In this document: one piece after another, positions 8,143 to 51,805 of the stretch
Position numbering within the stretch: position 1 is the first letter of the stretch
How the letters are laid out: each line of letters starts with the position of its first letter
NCBI RefSeq assembly: GCF_011299615.1
Contig: NZ_CP049861.1
Coordinates: forward strand, 310,001-374,000
DNA from: Erysipelothrix sp. HDW6C
GTDB lineage: Bacteria; Bacillota_I; Bacilli_A; Erysipelotrichales; Erysipelotrichaceae
Direction of reading: 5' to 3'
Length of the DNA: 64,000 nt
Notes under the pieces: model-generated
Databases searched by the model: none
The model's input: only the letters and a program-made list of their open reading frames with translations
Told to the model about the DNA's origin: nothing
Program-made: the position numbers and the translations under genes

Positions 8143-8167
8143 AAAAAAAGAGTAGCGAATGCTACTC
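8143..8167 (-). terminator. Terminator of the noc-parA-parB transcript
   Basis: On the minus strand GAGTAGC-ATTC-GCTACTC is followed by seven T. It overlaps the parB stop codon. Confidence 0.88.
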
Positions 8168-9028
8168 CATAATATCTAACAATTCTAAAATACGATTCAA
8201 ATCATCATTGTCTTCAAAGTGAATGGTTACTTTGTGTTGATCAATGTTAATGCGTGTTTGTAGTTTCTTTTCAAAAAGTGACTTTGCATATGAGAATTGT
8301 GAATTATCGACAGGTTTTACCGGTACTTTCTCAGTATGCTCATTGTTGATAAGTGCTTCAGTTTCACGAACAGATAATTTACGGTCGTAAATCTGTTGGG
8401 CAAAACGCTCAATCTCTTTTGGATCTTCAAGTGTAACAAGCGGTCTAACATGACCCATCGTGAGTTTATTCTCACTGACCATTTCTTGAACTGATTTTGG
8501 CAAACGTAACAGACGAAGGAGATTGGTTATATGGCTACGTGACTTGCTGACACGTTTCGCGACCTCATCTTGAGTAAGACCCAATCGTTCAATAAGTGAT
8601 TGGTAGCCCGCTGCCTCTTCAATAACATTCAAATCTTCCCGTTGCACGTTTTCAATAATGGCAATTTCCATCATTTGAGCATCGTCAAATTCAACAACAA
8701 TCGCTGCAATGTCTTCCATTCCAGCTTCTTTTGAAGCGCGCAAGCGACGTTCGCCAGCAACAAGTTCGTACCCTTTTTTGGTTTCACGAACAAGGATGGG
8801 GGTAAAGAGTCCGTGTGTACGGATTGATTCTGCCAATTCACGAATTTTTTCTTCATCAAAATGACGACGTGGTTGATAGGGATTGGTACGAACATCTTTA
8901 ACTTTTAGAGTTGTTTTTGTTCCACCAAAATTATCATTTTTTCCTTGTTGGATATCTTCAAGTACATTTGTGACATCATCACCAAAGATTGCTCCAAGAC
9001 CACGCCCTAAACGATTGTTATCGGACAT
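8162..9028 (-). CDS. parB: Chromosome partitioning protein ParB (Spo0J)
   Basis: CTP-dependent clamp that loads at parS and organises the origin region. The start is taken at 9028 (MSDNNRLGRGLGAIF), 288 aa; a GTG at 9037 is possible. It shows the N-terminal LGRGLGA motif that stimulates ParA, NPYQPR, the CTP-site motifs GERRLRA and ENVQRED, an HTH with SKSRSHITNLLRLL, and MGHVRPL. The Arg (SRS) and Gly (MGH) are the residues expected for parS rather than Noc-site specificity. It overlaps parA by 11 bases. Two matching parS palindromes lie at 49.55 and 51.76 kb. Confidence 0.95.
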   Translation of the reverse strand: MSDNNRLGRGLGAIFGDDVTNVLEDIQQGKNDNFGGTKTTLKVKDVRTNPYQPRRHFDEEKIRELAESIRTHGLFTPILVRETKKGYELVAGERRLRASKEAGMEDIAAIVVEFDDAQMMEIAIIENVQREDLNVIEEAAGYQSLIERLGLTQDEVAKRVSKSRSHITNLLRLLRLPKSVQEMVSENKLTMGHVRPLVTLEDPKEIERFAQQIYDRKLSVRETEALINNEHTEKVPVKPVDNSQFSYAKSLFEKKLQTRINIDQHKVTIHFEDNDDLNRILELLDIME

Positions 9029-9809
9029 TTGCTTCACTCTCTTTCTTATGTTGTGATAAGACTTCTTTTGCTAAAGAAGCGTACGCTTTTGCGCCTTCTG
9101 ACTTTAAGTCATATTCAAAGATTGTATTCCCTCGCGATGGTGCTTCGGATAATTTAACATTTCGTGGTATGTTACTCTTATAAACGCGTTCTTTAAAGTA
9201 TTTACGAACTTCTTGTTGGACTTCAACACTTAAGCGCGTTCTCACATCAAACATCGTCAACAATACACCTTCGATTTTTAAGTCTGGGTTGAATAATTTT
9301 TGAACCAAACGAATGGTTGATAAAAGTTGTGTTAACCCTTCAAGTGCATAGTATTCGCATTGAACTGGGATAATAACGGAATCCGCAGCAGTCAGTGCAT
9401 TTGTATTCAAAAGACCTAATGAAGGGGGACAATCTATAATAATAAAATCATAATCGTCTTTAACTTTCATTAGTTTGTTTTTTAGTAATTTTTCACGTCC
9501 GATTTTAAACTCCACCATTTCCAAATCGGCACCAGCAAGATCAATCGTCGCTGGAATGAGATCCATTGGTGGTGTCGTCAATTTTAAGACCACATCGCCA
9601 ACTTCTTTTTCGGTTAAAATTAAATCATAAGTACTTTCCTTGATTGACATGCGATTCGCACCCACACCTTGCGATGCGTTTCCTTGCGGATCAAGATCGA
9701 TCAAGAGTACTTTTTGGCCCAAATACGCCAAGCCTGCTGATAAGTTAATGCTTGTGGTTGTCTTACCAACGCCACCCTTTTGATTTGCTACGGCAATTAT
9801 TTTCCCCAT
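9018..9809 (-). CDS. parA: Chromosome partitioning ATPase ParA (Soj)
   Basis: Deviant Walker-A ATPase, 263 aa, that works with ParB in origin segregation and influences DnaA in related bacteria. Motifs: KGGVGKTTTSINL (residues 11-23, with the signature Lys), LLIDLDPQGNAS, and IIDCPPSLGLLNTNAL. The DNA-binding basic residues of the C-terminal helix are consistent with the family. GAAGGATG precedes the ATG. It lies between noc and parB, as in other Firmicutes. Confidence 0.96.
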   Translation of the reverse strand: MGKIIAVANQKGGVGKTTTSINLSAGLAYLGQKVLLIDLDPQGNASQGVGANRMSIKESTYDLILTEKEVGDVVLKLTTPPMDLIPATIDLAGADLEMVEFKIGREKLLKNKLMKVKDDYDFIIIDCPPSLGLLNTNALTAADSVIIPVQCEYYALEGLTQLLSTIRLVQKLFNPDLKIEGVLLTMFDVRTRLSVEVQQEVRKYFKERVYKSNIPRNVKLSEAPSRGNTIFEYDLKSEGAKAYASLAKEVLSQHKKESEANVR

Positions 9810-9827: not shown

Positions 9828-10577
9828 TTATTTAGGAAAACGAACTGTAATTACAACCTCGTCTTCGGTTTCTTTCATTTCATGCTGAACAGGAATTCCT
9901 GTTTTCTCAATCATACCAATGGATTGCTTGATCGTATTGATTCCAATTTTTACGCTTTGTGAGATACCCCGTGTGATTGGCTTGTGTTTCCGCGGTTTAT
10001 TGACAAGCGTTTCTGTTTGCTTAACATTCAATTTCTTATTAATAATTTCATCAAGAACATGTTCTTGTTTTTCACGCTCAATCCCTAACAAAGCGCGGGC
10101 GTGGCGTTCTGTAATGCGACGCTCTCCCAATGCTCCTAAAACCGGTTCAGGTAGATCAAGAAGGCGGATTTTATTGGCAATTGCGGATTGTGATTTACCC
10201 AAACGTGTCGCCAATTGCTTTTGAGTTATTCCTTGAATCCTTAAGATGTCACGAAAGGCTTTTGCTTCCTCAAGGACACTCAAGTTCTCACGTTGAATGT
10301 TCTCGATGAGTGCAACTGTAGCACTTTTCTCATCATTGATATTACTTATTATTACGGGTACAGTTAGGAAACCGGACATCATCATCGCTCGGTAGCGTCG
10401 CTCCCCAGCAATGATTTCATAATGGTCGCCAACTTCTCTAACGACGATGGGCTGAATAAGTCCATTTTCACGAATTGATTGTGCCAGTTCCATCAGACTT
10501 TCCTCATCAAATATTGTTCTTGGTTGATATCGATTCGGTTTTATCTTTTCAATGGCTAATTCTGTCTGATCAATCAT
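9828..10577 (-). CDS. noc: Nucleoid occlusion protein Noc, without N-terminal extension
   Basis: ParB-family CTPase, 249 aa, encoded directly after rsmG as Noc is in Bacillus. It has NRYQPR, GERRYRA and ENIQREN (CTP-binding motifs). The DNA-recognition residues are of Noc type: Gln in GKSQSAIANK, Lys in NKIRLL and Arg in TERHARALL. Bacillus Noc starts with about 25 extra residues that include a membrane-targeting amphipathic helix. Here the protein starts at MIDQTELAIEKIKPNRYQPR and has no such extension. A strong GGGGAGG precedes the ATG, so the start is secure. The start overlaps rsmG by 8 bases. Confidence 0.88.
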   Translation of the reverse strand: MIDQTELAIEKIKPNRYQPRTIFDEESLMELAQSIRENGLIQPIVVREVGDHYEIIAGERRYRAMMMSGFLTVPVIISNINDEKSATVALIENIQRENLSVLEEAKAFRDILRIQGITQKQLATRLGKSQSAIANKIRLLDLPEPVLGALGERRITERHARALLGIEREKQEHVLDEIINKKLNVKQTETLVNKPRKHKPITRGISQSVKIGINTIKQSIGMIEKTGIPVQHEMKETEDEVVITVRFPK

Positions 10578-40606: not shown

Positions 40607-41971
40607 ATGACAACAATGAAGTTTTATTTAGAAGATGTTTGGGGCAAAGTCAAATTGTTTATTCAACAAAATAGTCCGCTCGACGATATGATTTTCAAGA
40701 CATATATTGAATCTGATACGCGTCTTGGGGCTTTAAATGAAGCCAGCGCCACCGTCGTTGTATCCACATATTTGCAAAAAGTAATCCTCCAGGATCAAAT
40801 TGATTACCTAAACAAAGCCATCAATAATGTATTAGACAAAGATAATATGGTCTGCGAAGTGATGGAAGAGGGAGAATTTGGTAAGAAAAATCCTGTAAAT
40901 ATTCCTATTATTCCTGAACAGCGTCAAGTTGTTCGTACAGATGGCGTTGTTGCAAATCAAACGTTTGATAACTTTGTTGTTGGACCCAGTAATAAAGAGA
41001 GCCATTCTGCTGCGCTAGGCTGTGCATACCGCCCCGGGCAATTCTATACACCTTTGTTTATCTATGGTAATTCCGGATTGGGAAAAACACACTTGCTCAA
41101 CGCAATTGGTAATTATATAAAAGCAAACAACCCAAATGCTAAAGTTTTCTATACATCAAGTTCTGATTTTGTACGCTTGGTTGCGTCATCCATTCAAAAT
41201 CGTGAAATCGAAGAGTTTAAAGATCAAATGTATGCCCTTGATGTGCTGTTAATTGATGATATTCAATTTTTAGCAGGTAAAGAGAAATCCCATGAGATTT
41301 TCTTCCATATTTTCAATGAACTCATCTACAATCGAAAACAAATTGTTATCACAAGTGATCGACTCCCCACAGAGATTAAGGGGCTTGAGGACCGCTTAAT
41401 TAGCCGTTTCTCATCGGGTCTCTCCGTCGGTGTCGACACACCTGAGTTCGAAACTTCGCTCGCCATATTAAAAATGAAAATTGCAAATCGTAGTGTCGAT
41501 CCTGATGTCTTTGATGAAGATGTATTGAGCTATGTTGCCGCAAATTATTCCAAAGATGTCCGGATGCTAGAAGGTGCACTCAATCGTCTTCTATTCTATT
41601 CCATTCAGTTCTCTGATAATGAACACATTGATATCGATATTGCCATGGCTGCTTTCAAGAGTAGCGGTGAGAAAATTCAATCAACAGAGCTTGATACAAA
41701 AACAATCAAGCGCATTGTCGCCGACTACTATGGTCTCACACAAGCGCAACTGGTATCCAAGGCACGAACAAAAGCAATTTCAAATGCTCGCCATATTGCT
41801 ATCTATTTGTCACGGAAACATCTGGATCTTCCCTACAACAAAATTGGTGAAGATTTTGGAAAACGTGATCACTCTACGATTATCAGTGCATGTGATAAAA
41901 TAGAAAAGAAATTAAAAGTTGATCAGTTATTGGGTAAAGCAATCTTTGAAATTGAAGGAAAATTCAAATAA
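40607..41971 (+). CDS. dnaA: Chromosomal replication initiator DnaA
   Basis: Binds DnaA boxes and opens the origin. Length 454 aa: domain I at about 1-85, linker, AAA+ domain with Walker A GNSGLGKTH and Walker B LLIDDIQF, arginine finger region RFSSGLSVGV, and C-terminal domain IV with the signature GKRDHSTIISACDKIEK. It is flanked by box clusters on both sides. AAGGGAG precedes the ATG. Confidence 0.98.
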   Translation: MTTMKFYLEDVWGKVKLFIQQNSPLDDMIFKTYIESDTRLGALNEASATVVVSTYLQKVILQDQIDYLNKAINNVLDKDNMVCEVMEEGEFGKKNPVNIPIIPEQRQVVRTDGVVANQTFDNFVVGPSNKESHSAALGCAYRPGQFYTPLFIYGNSGLGKTHLLNAIGNYIKANNPNAKVFYTSSSDFVRLVASSIQNREIEEFKDQMYALDVLLIDDIQFLAGKEKSHEIFFHIFNELIYNRKQIVITSDRLPTEIKGLEDRLISRFSSGLSVGVDTPEFETSLAILKMKIANRSVDPDVFDEDVLSYVAANYSKDVRMLEGALNRLLFYSIQFSDNEHIDIDIAMAAFKSSGEKIQSTELDTKTIKRIVADYYGLTQAQLVSKARTKAISNARHIAIYLSRKHLDLPYNKIGEDFGKRDHSTIISACDKIEKKLKVDQLLGKAIFEIEGKFK

Positions 41972-49282: not shown

Positions 49283-49315
49283 AAACAGCGCGTTAGTAAC
49301 GTGCTGTTTTTCTTT
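49283..49315 (+). terminator. Terminator of gyrA
   Basis: AACAGC-G-CGTT pairs with AACG-T-GCTGTT around 49284-49308, followed by a T run. Confidence 0.85.
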
Positions 49316-49391
49316 TGTGCTTGAATGAGGGTCTTTAACTGGATATTTCCGAGAGGGATTGGGGATTCAAATCAAAAAGCATAAGAGTGTT

Positions 49392-49420
49392 TGACATCAT
49401 ACACCCTTAAGGCTATAATT
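49392..49420 (+). promoter_or_regulatory. Consensus promoter of the serS leader
   Basis: TTGACA at 49392-49397 and TATAAT at 49415-49420 with a 17-base spacer, a perfect sigma-A match. Transcription would start near 49427. Confidence 0.9.
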
Positions 49421-49426
49421 TAAGAA

Positions 49427-49625
49427 ACTCATTGATAGGGACTAATACGAGAGACTTATTGCAGAGAGATGGTGTTTGGTGCAAACCATCATAATGACTT
49501 GTAGTTCAACCCTGGAGAGATTATTCGGCAACAACCGTTATCTGTTTAAGTAATGTTTCACGTGAAACATTAGAAAAAGGGTGGCACCACGATTCAATCG
49601 TCCCTTAAAGCGGTGTTTTTTTATT
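49427..49625 (+). promoter_or_regulatory. T-box riboswitch of serS, probably tRNA-Ser responsive
   Basis: The Stem I distal loop AGAGAG...TTGGTG lies near 49463-49481. The likely specifier TCA is at 49506-49508, followed by ACCC-TGGAG exactly as ATG is followed in the metN leader. The T-box GGGTGGCACCACG lies at 49579-49591 and a terminator with seven T ends at 49621. Just before the T-box, where Stem III is expected, lies a perfect parS palindrome. Transcripts continue into serS when uncharged tRNA-Ser binds, by family knowledge. Confidence 0.92.
49552..49571. other. parS: parS site inside the serS T-box leader
   Basis: TGTTTCACGTGAAACA at 49554-49569 matches the Bacillus ParB-binding consensus at all 16 bases. 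One AT/TT pair on each side extends the palindrome to 20 bases. The RNA copy can fold as an 8-bp stem with an ACGU loop, directly before the T-box element. It lies about 7.5 kb from the origin unwinding element. Confidence 0.9.
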
Positions 49626-49639
49626 TTCAGGAGGAAATT

Positions 49640-50926
49640 ATGCTAGATATTAACTTATTCCGTACTAATCCGGAGCTTATTAAAGAGAACCTAACGAAGA
49701 AGTTTCAAGAAGCGAAGTTCCCTATGGTCGATAAAATCATAGAGTTAGACATCGAATACCGTGGAATTAAGACCCGTGCTGATGAATTACGTGGTCAACG
49801 CAACAGTTTAAGCAAACAAATCGGTATGCTTATGGGGCAAAAGAAAATCGATGAAGCAAATGAAGTTAAATCCCAAGTTCAAGCATTTGCTGAAGAATTG
49901 AAGCAAATCGAAGAACGCGAAGAGCCACTTTATGATGAACTTCAAGCACTTTTAATGCAAATTCCAAATATTATCGCGGATGATGTTCCAATAGGAAAAG
50001 ATGACAGTGAAAATGTAGAACTCTATACAGTTGGTGAACATGAAGAAAAGAACTTTGCAATTCCGTATCATGTCGACATTATGGAGTCGTTTGGTGGTAT
50101 TGATCTTGACTCAGCACGTAAAGTAAGTGGTCAAGGGTTCTATTATCTACAAAAAGATATTGCGAGACTTCACTCAGCGGTAACAACGTATGCTAGAGAT
50201 TTTATGATTGATCGTGGCTATGACTATGTTATACCTCCCTTCATGATTCGTAGTCATGTTGTTACAGGGGTTATGAGCTTTGAAGAGATGGAAAACATGA
50301 TGTATAAGATCGAAGGCGAAGATTTGTACCTTATAGGTACAAGTGAACACTCCATGATTGGAAAATATATCGATACAATTACTCCGGAAGCATCGTTACC
50401 ACACAAACTCACAAGCTACTCACCATGTTTCCGTAAGGAAGTAGGGGCTCATGGCATTGAAGAGCGTGGAGTATACCGCATTCACCAATTTGAGAAACAA
50501 GAAATGGTTGTTGTATGTAAACCAGAGGACAGTGCAGCAATGTTTGAAGAGTTGTACAAGAATTCCGTTGATTACTTCCGTTCTTTAGATATTCCTGTAC
50601 GCGTACTTGAATGTTGTTCTGGAGATCTTGCTGATTTAAAGCATAAGTCGGTAGATGTTGAAGCCTGGAGTCCACGCCAAAAGAAATACTTCGAAGTAGG
50701 AAGTTGTTCAAATCTTACGGATGCACAATCACGACGCTTAAAAATTAGAATAGACACAGAGGAAGGACGTGTGTTCGCACATACCCTGAATAATACGGTT
50801 GTTGCACCGCCACGCATGTTAATTGCATTCTTAGAAAACAACTTACAAGCGGATGGTTCGGTTCTAATTCCAGAAGCACTCCGTCCATACATGGGATTTA
50901 AAGATAAAATTGTTCCAACAAAGTAA
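49640..50926 (+). CDS. serS: Seryl-tRNA synthetase
   Basis: Class II synthetase charging tRNA-Ser, 428 aa from the ATG after AGGAGG. An earlier ATG at 49613 lies in the T-box terminator. The N-terminal coiled-coil arm is at about 30-100. Class II motifs: motif 2 SPCFRKEVGAHGIEERGVYRIHQFEK and motif 3 NNTVVAPPRMLIAFLEN (shown as key region). Expression is under the T-box above. Confidence 0.97.
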   Translation: MLDINLFRTNPELIKENLTKKFQEAKFPMVDKIIELDIEYRGIKTRADELRGQRNSLSKQIGMLMGQKKIDEANEVKSQVQAFAEELKQIEEREEPLYDELQALLMQIPNIIADDVPIGKDDSENVELYTVGEHEEKNFAIPYHVDIMESFGGIDLDSARKVSGQGFYYLQKDIARLHSAVTTYARDFMIDRGYDYVIPPFMIRSHVVTGVMSFEEMENMMYKIEGEDLYLIGTSEHSMIGKYIDTITPEASLPHKLTSYSPCFRKEVGAHGIEERGVYRIHQFEKQEMVVVCKPEDSAAMFEELYKNSVDYFRSLDIPVRVLECCSGDLADLKHKSVDVEAWSPRQKKYFEVGSCSNLTDAQSRRLKIRIDTEEGRVFAHTLNNTVVAPPRMLIAFLENNLQADGSVLIPEALRPYMGFKDKIVPTK

Positions 50927-51761: not shown

Positions 51762-51777
51762 TGTTTCACGTGAAACG
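51762..51777. other. parS: parS site next to the SRP RNA promoter
   Basis: TGTTTCACGTGAAACG matches the consensus at 15 of 16 bases. The next base begins the TTGCAT -35 of the SRP RNA promoter. It lies in the divergent region between the Cof phosphatase and ffs, 2.2 kb from the first parS. Confidence 0.85.
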
Positions 51778-51805
51778 TTGCATTAAACGACAGATTTGGT
51801 ATAAT
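51778..51805 (+). promoter_or_regulatory. Promoter of the SRP RNA
   Basis: TTGCAT at 51778-51783, 16-base spacer, TATAAT at 51800-51805 with an extended TGG before it. Strong promoter, as expected for a stable RNA. Confidence 0.8.

Follow-up and report, generated by a model that had tools for sequence, protein, structure and literature searches.

The leader of the seryl-tRNA synthetase gene serS in Erysipelothrix sp. HDW6C contains a palindrome that, with a probability of roughly 85% in our estimate, is used twice: as centromere DNA (parS) and, once transcribed, as Stem III of the serS T-box. This reading is drawn from sequence analysis, and binding of ParB at 49554, sensing of tRNA-Ser by the leader and the resulting switching are inferred from family membership. 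All coordinates refer to the window, by which we mean the whole stretch of 64,000 nucleotides that was analysed. In the mechanism that we propose, about 22 bases would carry out two jobs. As double-stranded DNA the 16-bp core would be an origin-proximal parS for ParB loading, and the RNA of the palindrome together with a few flanking pairs would form Stem III, which with the antiterminator would constitute the domain that senses tRNA-Ser charging. The stem and loop of Stem III are free in sequence, so that any hairpin should suffice, and a perfect DNA palindrome is automatically a hairpin; for these two reasons parS could settle in the slot with hardly any loss to the riboswitch, and the variability of Stem III makes it a natural home for a DNA palindrome. 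Selection for ParB binding would then freeze the core, and the flanks would evolve as paired RNA. The gene itself is close to the origin, the usual region for parS sites.

The parS palindrome and the T-box leader of serS

The features of the serS region are listed below.

49391 to 49419, plus strand: serS promoter, TTGACA-17-TATAAT, 12/12 (consensus scan)
49423 to 49608, plus strand: serS T-box leader with Stem I, Stem IIA/B, Stem III and antiterminator (Rfam RF00230)
49506 to 49508, plus strand: specifier codon UCA (Ser), followed by A49509, in front of CCC (sequence reading)
49526 to 49540, plus strand: Stem IIA/B region, CGG...CCGTTA (Rfam alignment)
49551 to 49572, plus strand: Stem III, 9-bp RNA hairpin UAAUGUUUC-ACGU-GAAACAUUA (fold, Rfam alignment, covariation)
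49554 to 49569, no strand assigned: parS, 16/16 TGTTTCACGTGAAACA (consensus match)
49578 to 49605, plus strand: antiterminator with T-box bulge, AGGGUGGCACC...CGUCCCU (Rfam, fold)
49586 to 49622, plus strand: likely competing terminator (inferred from sequence; fold weak and not informative)
49640 to 50926, plus strand: serS, seryl-tRNA synthetase, 428 aa (Pfam PF02403 and PF00587)
51762 to 51777, no strand assigned: second parS, 15/16 TGTTTCACGTGAAACG, upstream of the SRP RNA gene (consensus match)

A first-pass annotation of this DNA had placed a 16/16 parS match inside the serS T-box leader, and this was borne out: TGTTTCACGTGAAACA conforms to the consensus TGTTNCACGTGNAACA at every position and lies within a perfect 20-bp palindrome, AATGTTTCACGTGAAACATT at 49552-49571, and the surrounding leader is matched by RF00230 with 103.7 bits (E 8e-22; gathering score 93). 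The same annotation had proposed that the palindrome folds as RNA into an 8-bp stem with an ACGU loop at the position of Stem III. Position and loop held, and the stem had to be corrected to 9 bp. In the Rfam alignment the palindrome takes the place of Stem III, the hairpin flanked by Stem IIA/B and the antiterminator, and positions 49549-49575, when folded alone, give a stem of 49551-49559 paired with 49564-49572 around the ACGU loop (-8.0 kcal/mol, z -3.8). The window departs from the RRRxG purine string expected 5' of the stem, having AAGUA there. Minimum-energy folding of the whole leader did not recover the T-box fold, and that fold was left unused. The specifier agrees with the downstream gene, and in most relatives in which it is readable a UCN codon is found at the equivalent place.

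A terminator-like hairpin at 49283-49309 follows directly after gyrA and precedes the full-consensus serS promoter, which is why the leader looks like a transcription unit of its own. At the distal end, GGUG at 49612-49615 could pair with CACC and is followed by a T run, a pairing that is weak in the fold. As parS lies upstream of this terminator, it would be transcribed with serS on or off. A second T-box leader is present in the window at 66-297 (108 bits), before a gene for a methionine-type ABC transporter ATPase.

Only two parS sites with at most one mismatch exist in the 2.36-Mb genome, at 49554 and 51762, which lie 9 kb and 11 kb from dnaA, respectively. Chance would give approximately 0.0009 exact sites and 0.04 near-exact ones in the genome; this rarity, together with the phylogenetic recurrence described below, rules out a chance match as the origin of the parS in the serS leader. 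The second site abuts the likely -35 region of the SRP RNA promoter (TATAAT at 51800-51805), and in the genus Erysipelothrix a parS is found repeatedly some 820-870 bp downstream of serS. We also considered the Noc binding site (NBS, ATTTCCCGGGAAAT) as the identity of the site at 49554 and rejected it, the sequence being that of parS; no exact NBS was found in the whole genome, which holds only six 13/14 matches.

The genes for ParB, ParA and a Noc-like protein, and dnaA, lie in the same window.

8162 to 9037, minus strand: ParB (Spo0J-like), Arg and Gly at two parS-type specificity positions (alignment)
9018 to 9809, minus strand: ParA (Soj-like)
9828 to 10577, minus strand: Noc-like protein, Gln and Arg at two NBS-type positions
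40607 to 41971, plus strand: dnaA, where the GC skew changes sign (origin)

The minus-strand genes of the window are mnmG, rsmG and those for the Noc-like protein, ParA and ParB, and the order further on is dnaA, dnaN, recF, gyrB, gyrA, serS and then the SRP RNA. At the aligned positions of Caulobacter ParB R173 and G201 the window ParB carries KSR and MGH, and a published specificity rule holds that Arg and Gly are invariant at these positions in parS-binding ParBs (PMC7383237). By these residues alone, and in the absence of ParB binding data, the window ParB is of the parS-binding type. The Noc-like protein has NBS-type residues although the genome lacks an exact NBS.

Recurrence at serS and the occupants of the Stem III slot

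The arrangement recurs at serS across many genomes. We scanned 84,980 species genomes for a parS within 30 nt 5' of a T-box motif and obtained 76 loci in which the two adjoin; serS follows in 73, the contig ends first in two, and the last is L071 (Actinomycetales), a chance match that is without a T-box and without serS. Apart from the latter, the loci belong nearly all to Erysipelotrichaceae and the rest to other Bacilli. One locus, L102, was set aside as not being a Stem III slot case, its parS lying further upstream, before the CGTTA box and near Stem II. No T-box of any gene other than serS was found with a parS in the 84,980-genome scan. A class-wide sample of 395 genomes added six further families with the same parS and T-box before serS, giving seven families in total, although the SerRS proteins of the added families share only about a third of their residues with the window protein. 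All five members of the genus Erysipelothrix that were searched have the palindrome, in two core variants that are both of the form TGTTNCACGTGNAACA. Among genomes L238-L244, L245-L247 and L264-L270, whose SerRS has this low identity of about one third, most have the same T-box and parS leader; an in-place replacement of serS beneath a conserved leader is possible there.

What fills the slot in the absence of parS is informative about the RNA. Our family sample comprised 145 genomes with 130 serS loci, 106 of them with T-box motifs, and parS occupies the Stem III slot in 46 of these 106 leaders. Slots without parS are mostly filled by a hairpin unrelated in sequence, with a purine-rich, GAGNG-like string in front of it: a fold of at least 5 bp was observed in 49 of 56 different slots of this kind, and 50 rows yielded 48 different 20-mers. 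The first-pass annotation had raised the question of whether stem pairing and parS are conserved together among relatives, and they are; where parS is absent, another hairpin is usually in the slot. One group of serS T-box leaders in the family has no Stem III, so that the helix is dispensable in some lineages. Conversely, three genomes (L238, L242 and L243) have no Rfam T-box match at serS and yet carry a perfect parS 28 bp before the serS start. T-boxes without parS on the one hand and parS without a T-box on the other imply that either element can occur at serS alone. The slot is thus exchangeable between parS and other hairpins.

The SerRS tree requires 11 changes of the parS state, and well-supported branches account for at least six of them. 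This tree was built quickly and has long branches, and gain and loss of the slot parS (ancestral presence versus repeated gain) could not be separated. Two loci, L150 and L179, have an apparently decaying parS in slots that still fold. In L264 and L265 (family f10) the 5' arm is repeated, TTGTTTCA-TGTTTCACG-TGAAACAA, which leaves the shared 3' arm two possible partners, of which one gives parS and the other a slightly longer RNA stem; the outer stem of L179, with its decayed parS, is similar.

The restriction to serS raises the possibility that the overlap is a regulatory device, in which ParB loading damps or gates serS transcription or alters read-through into the gene, or in which serS transcription or Stem III folding alters or displaces ParB. 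Such coupling would add to dual use and would not exclude it. In its favour, the position is conserved at serS and not at other T-boxes, and precedents exist elsewhere: in Pseudomonas aeruginosa, ParB at two intergenic sites, parS3 and parS4, represses the genes beside them, and in pneumococcus comCDE is affected by one parS (both reviewed in PMC7022226). However, loss of Spo0J left the expression of parS-adjacent genes unchanged in Bacillus subtilis (PMC7022226), the majority of serS T-box leaders in the family lack a slot parS, with many of these genomes carrying parS 3' of serS instead, parS upstream of the terminator would be transcribed in either state of the switch, and the origin proximity of serS alone accounts for a parS there. 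We therefore consider coupling unlikely on present evidence. If it were true, tRNA-Ser charging and origin segregation would influence each other, linking translation to chromosome segregation.

Flank covariation and the nearly invariant core

If one sequence serves as both parS and Stem III, its flanks and its core should bear different marks of selection. At the RNA level, we examined 67 different parS-bearing slots in a gap-free alignment. The first flanking pair is AU in 33 and UA in 31 slots with one mismatch, and the third comprises six pair types with 8 mismatches. The covariation score of the flanks was 0.339, a value that none of 500 shuffles reached; it was 0.110 (sd 0.012) after shuffling and at most 0.099 when the partners were slid against each other. 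These shuffle tests are inflated by the relatedness of the slots. On the tree, flanking pairs 1, 2 and 3 underwent 8, 7 and 22 changes among paired states, respectively. One core pair is broken in a few leaders (L158, L156 and L048).

These data bear on the view that parS merely sits in a part of the leader that tolerates it, the hairpin being a by-product of the palindrome and idle in the RNA. Any transcript of parS would fold, after all, and Stem III is described as a part, variable in stem and loop sequence, of the T-box discriminator, which senses the 3' end of the tRNA (PMC7583486), is absent from some leaders of the family and had only a minor effect when shortened in one study (PMC6197855). 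Against this view, according to a later review the discriminator cannot do without Stem III (PMC7583486), leaders without parS mostly retain a hairpin in the same slot, and the flanks outside the 16 bp covary more than at other parS sites. Here, the helix extends by a mean of 4.0 pairs in T-box slots and by 2.1 pairs at 211 parS sites outside T-boxes, and flanking pairs 1-3 are paired more often than at those other sites (p 1e-7 to 1e-11, with sites that are non-independent). In addition, 73% of the T-box cases, as opposed to 20% of other parS sites, have an RRRNG string in the 12 nt 5' of parS. Flank pairing is not wholly riboswitch-specific, as the flanks of parS outside T-boxes also have some symmetry (the mean of 2.1 pairs compares with 1.0 in shuffled flanks). 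This control is partly contaminated, several of its sites downstream of serS resembling terminators, and because some control sites are hairpins of likely terminators, the comparison is conservative. On balance, we judge an idle hairpin to be distinctly improbable.

The sites just 3' of serS in relatives (L205, L034, L204 and L187; elsewhere, for instance, L084 3885-3900) often have a longer hairpin with a T run. At least three extra pairs together with a T-rich tail were seen at 18 of 102 near parS sites and at one of 62 far ones, and these parS hairpins, which resemble intrinsic terminators, may represent a second RNA use of parS.

At the DNA level, the picture in the slot is the reverse. 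The 16-bp core is almost invariant, with 8 changes in total on the SerRS tree (56 rows), whereas the positions of flanking pairs 1-3 changed 6-21 times each. Most substitutions in the core affect the degenerate position of TGTTNCACGTGNAACA, sometimes symmetrically (TGTTCCACGTGGAACA, TGTTACACGTGTAACA), which gives variants that suit ParB and the helix alike. Under selection on the RNA only, the core would drift as parS-less slots do, which argues that it is kept as DNA. That the core is only a T-box helix resembling parS and is unused by ParB is very unlikely, even in the absence of ParB binding data from these genomes: the core is nearly fixed in a helix whose sequence is free, its changes are concentrated where TGTTNCACGTGNAACA is degenerate, parS occurs at serS even without a T-box, and the genome encodes a ParB of the parS-binding type with only one other site to bind. 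A dual role for the palindrome, as parS in the DNA and as a helix in the RNA, had been suggested from the sequence of this single locus, and flank covariation, the frozen core and the presence of parS where there is no T-box now support it.

Relation to known systems and significance

As a ParABS site (compare Spo0J/parS of B. subtilis), the serS parS is typical in its 16/16 consensus match, its origin-proximal position, the nearby ParA and ParB genes and the small number of sites; it is unusual in lying within a transcribed, structured leader of which it makes one helix. As a T-box of the transcriptional class and serS type (RF00230), the leader has the expected Stem I with UCA, Stem IIA/B, Stem III, T-box bulge and antiterminator, but its Stem III core is apparently fixed by the site of a DNA-binding protein and is not free. 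ParB-family repressors such as KorB, or P. aeruginosa ParB at parS3/parS4, likewise involve a ParB-type protein bound beside a gene, with the differences that no repression has been demonstrated for serS and that the serS site is within leader RNA.

DNA uptake sequences (DUS/USS) of Neisseria and Haemophilus occur as inverted pairs that act as terminators. They are the nearest parallel known to us, since in them, too, a word recognised in DNA serves again as a hairpin in RNA, but there an uptake signal is combined with a terminator and here a centromere with a riboswitch helix. Both parS and the T-box are already known, and their combination appears to be new: we found no report linking parS with a T-box, a riboswitch, serS or Erysipelothrix in the open-licence literature, most subscription papers being outside the scope of this search.

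Collectively, the serS leader provides a natural case, repeated over many species, in which one sequence appears to be under selection both as a protein-binding centromere in DNA and as a structural helix in RNA, two constraints that can be separated base by base. The relatives offer ready-made swaps, with parS, another hairpin or no T-box, and interference between ParB and RNA polymerase at a centromere in an essential transcribed leader becomes testable. For the T-box itself, the slot makes plain that the sequence of Stem III is of little importance.
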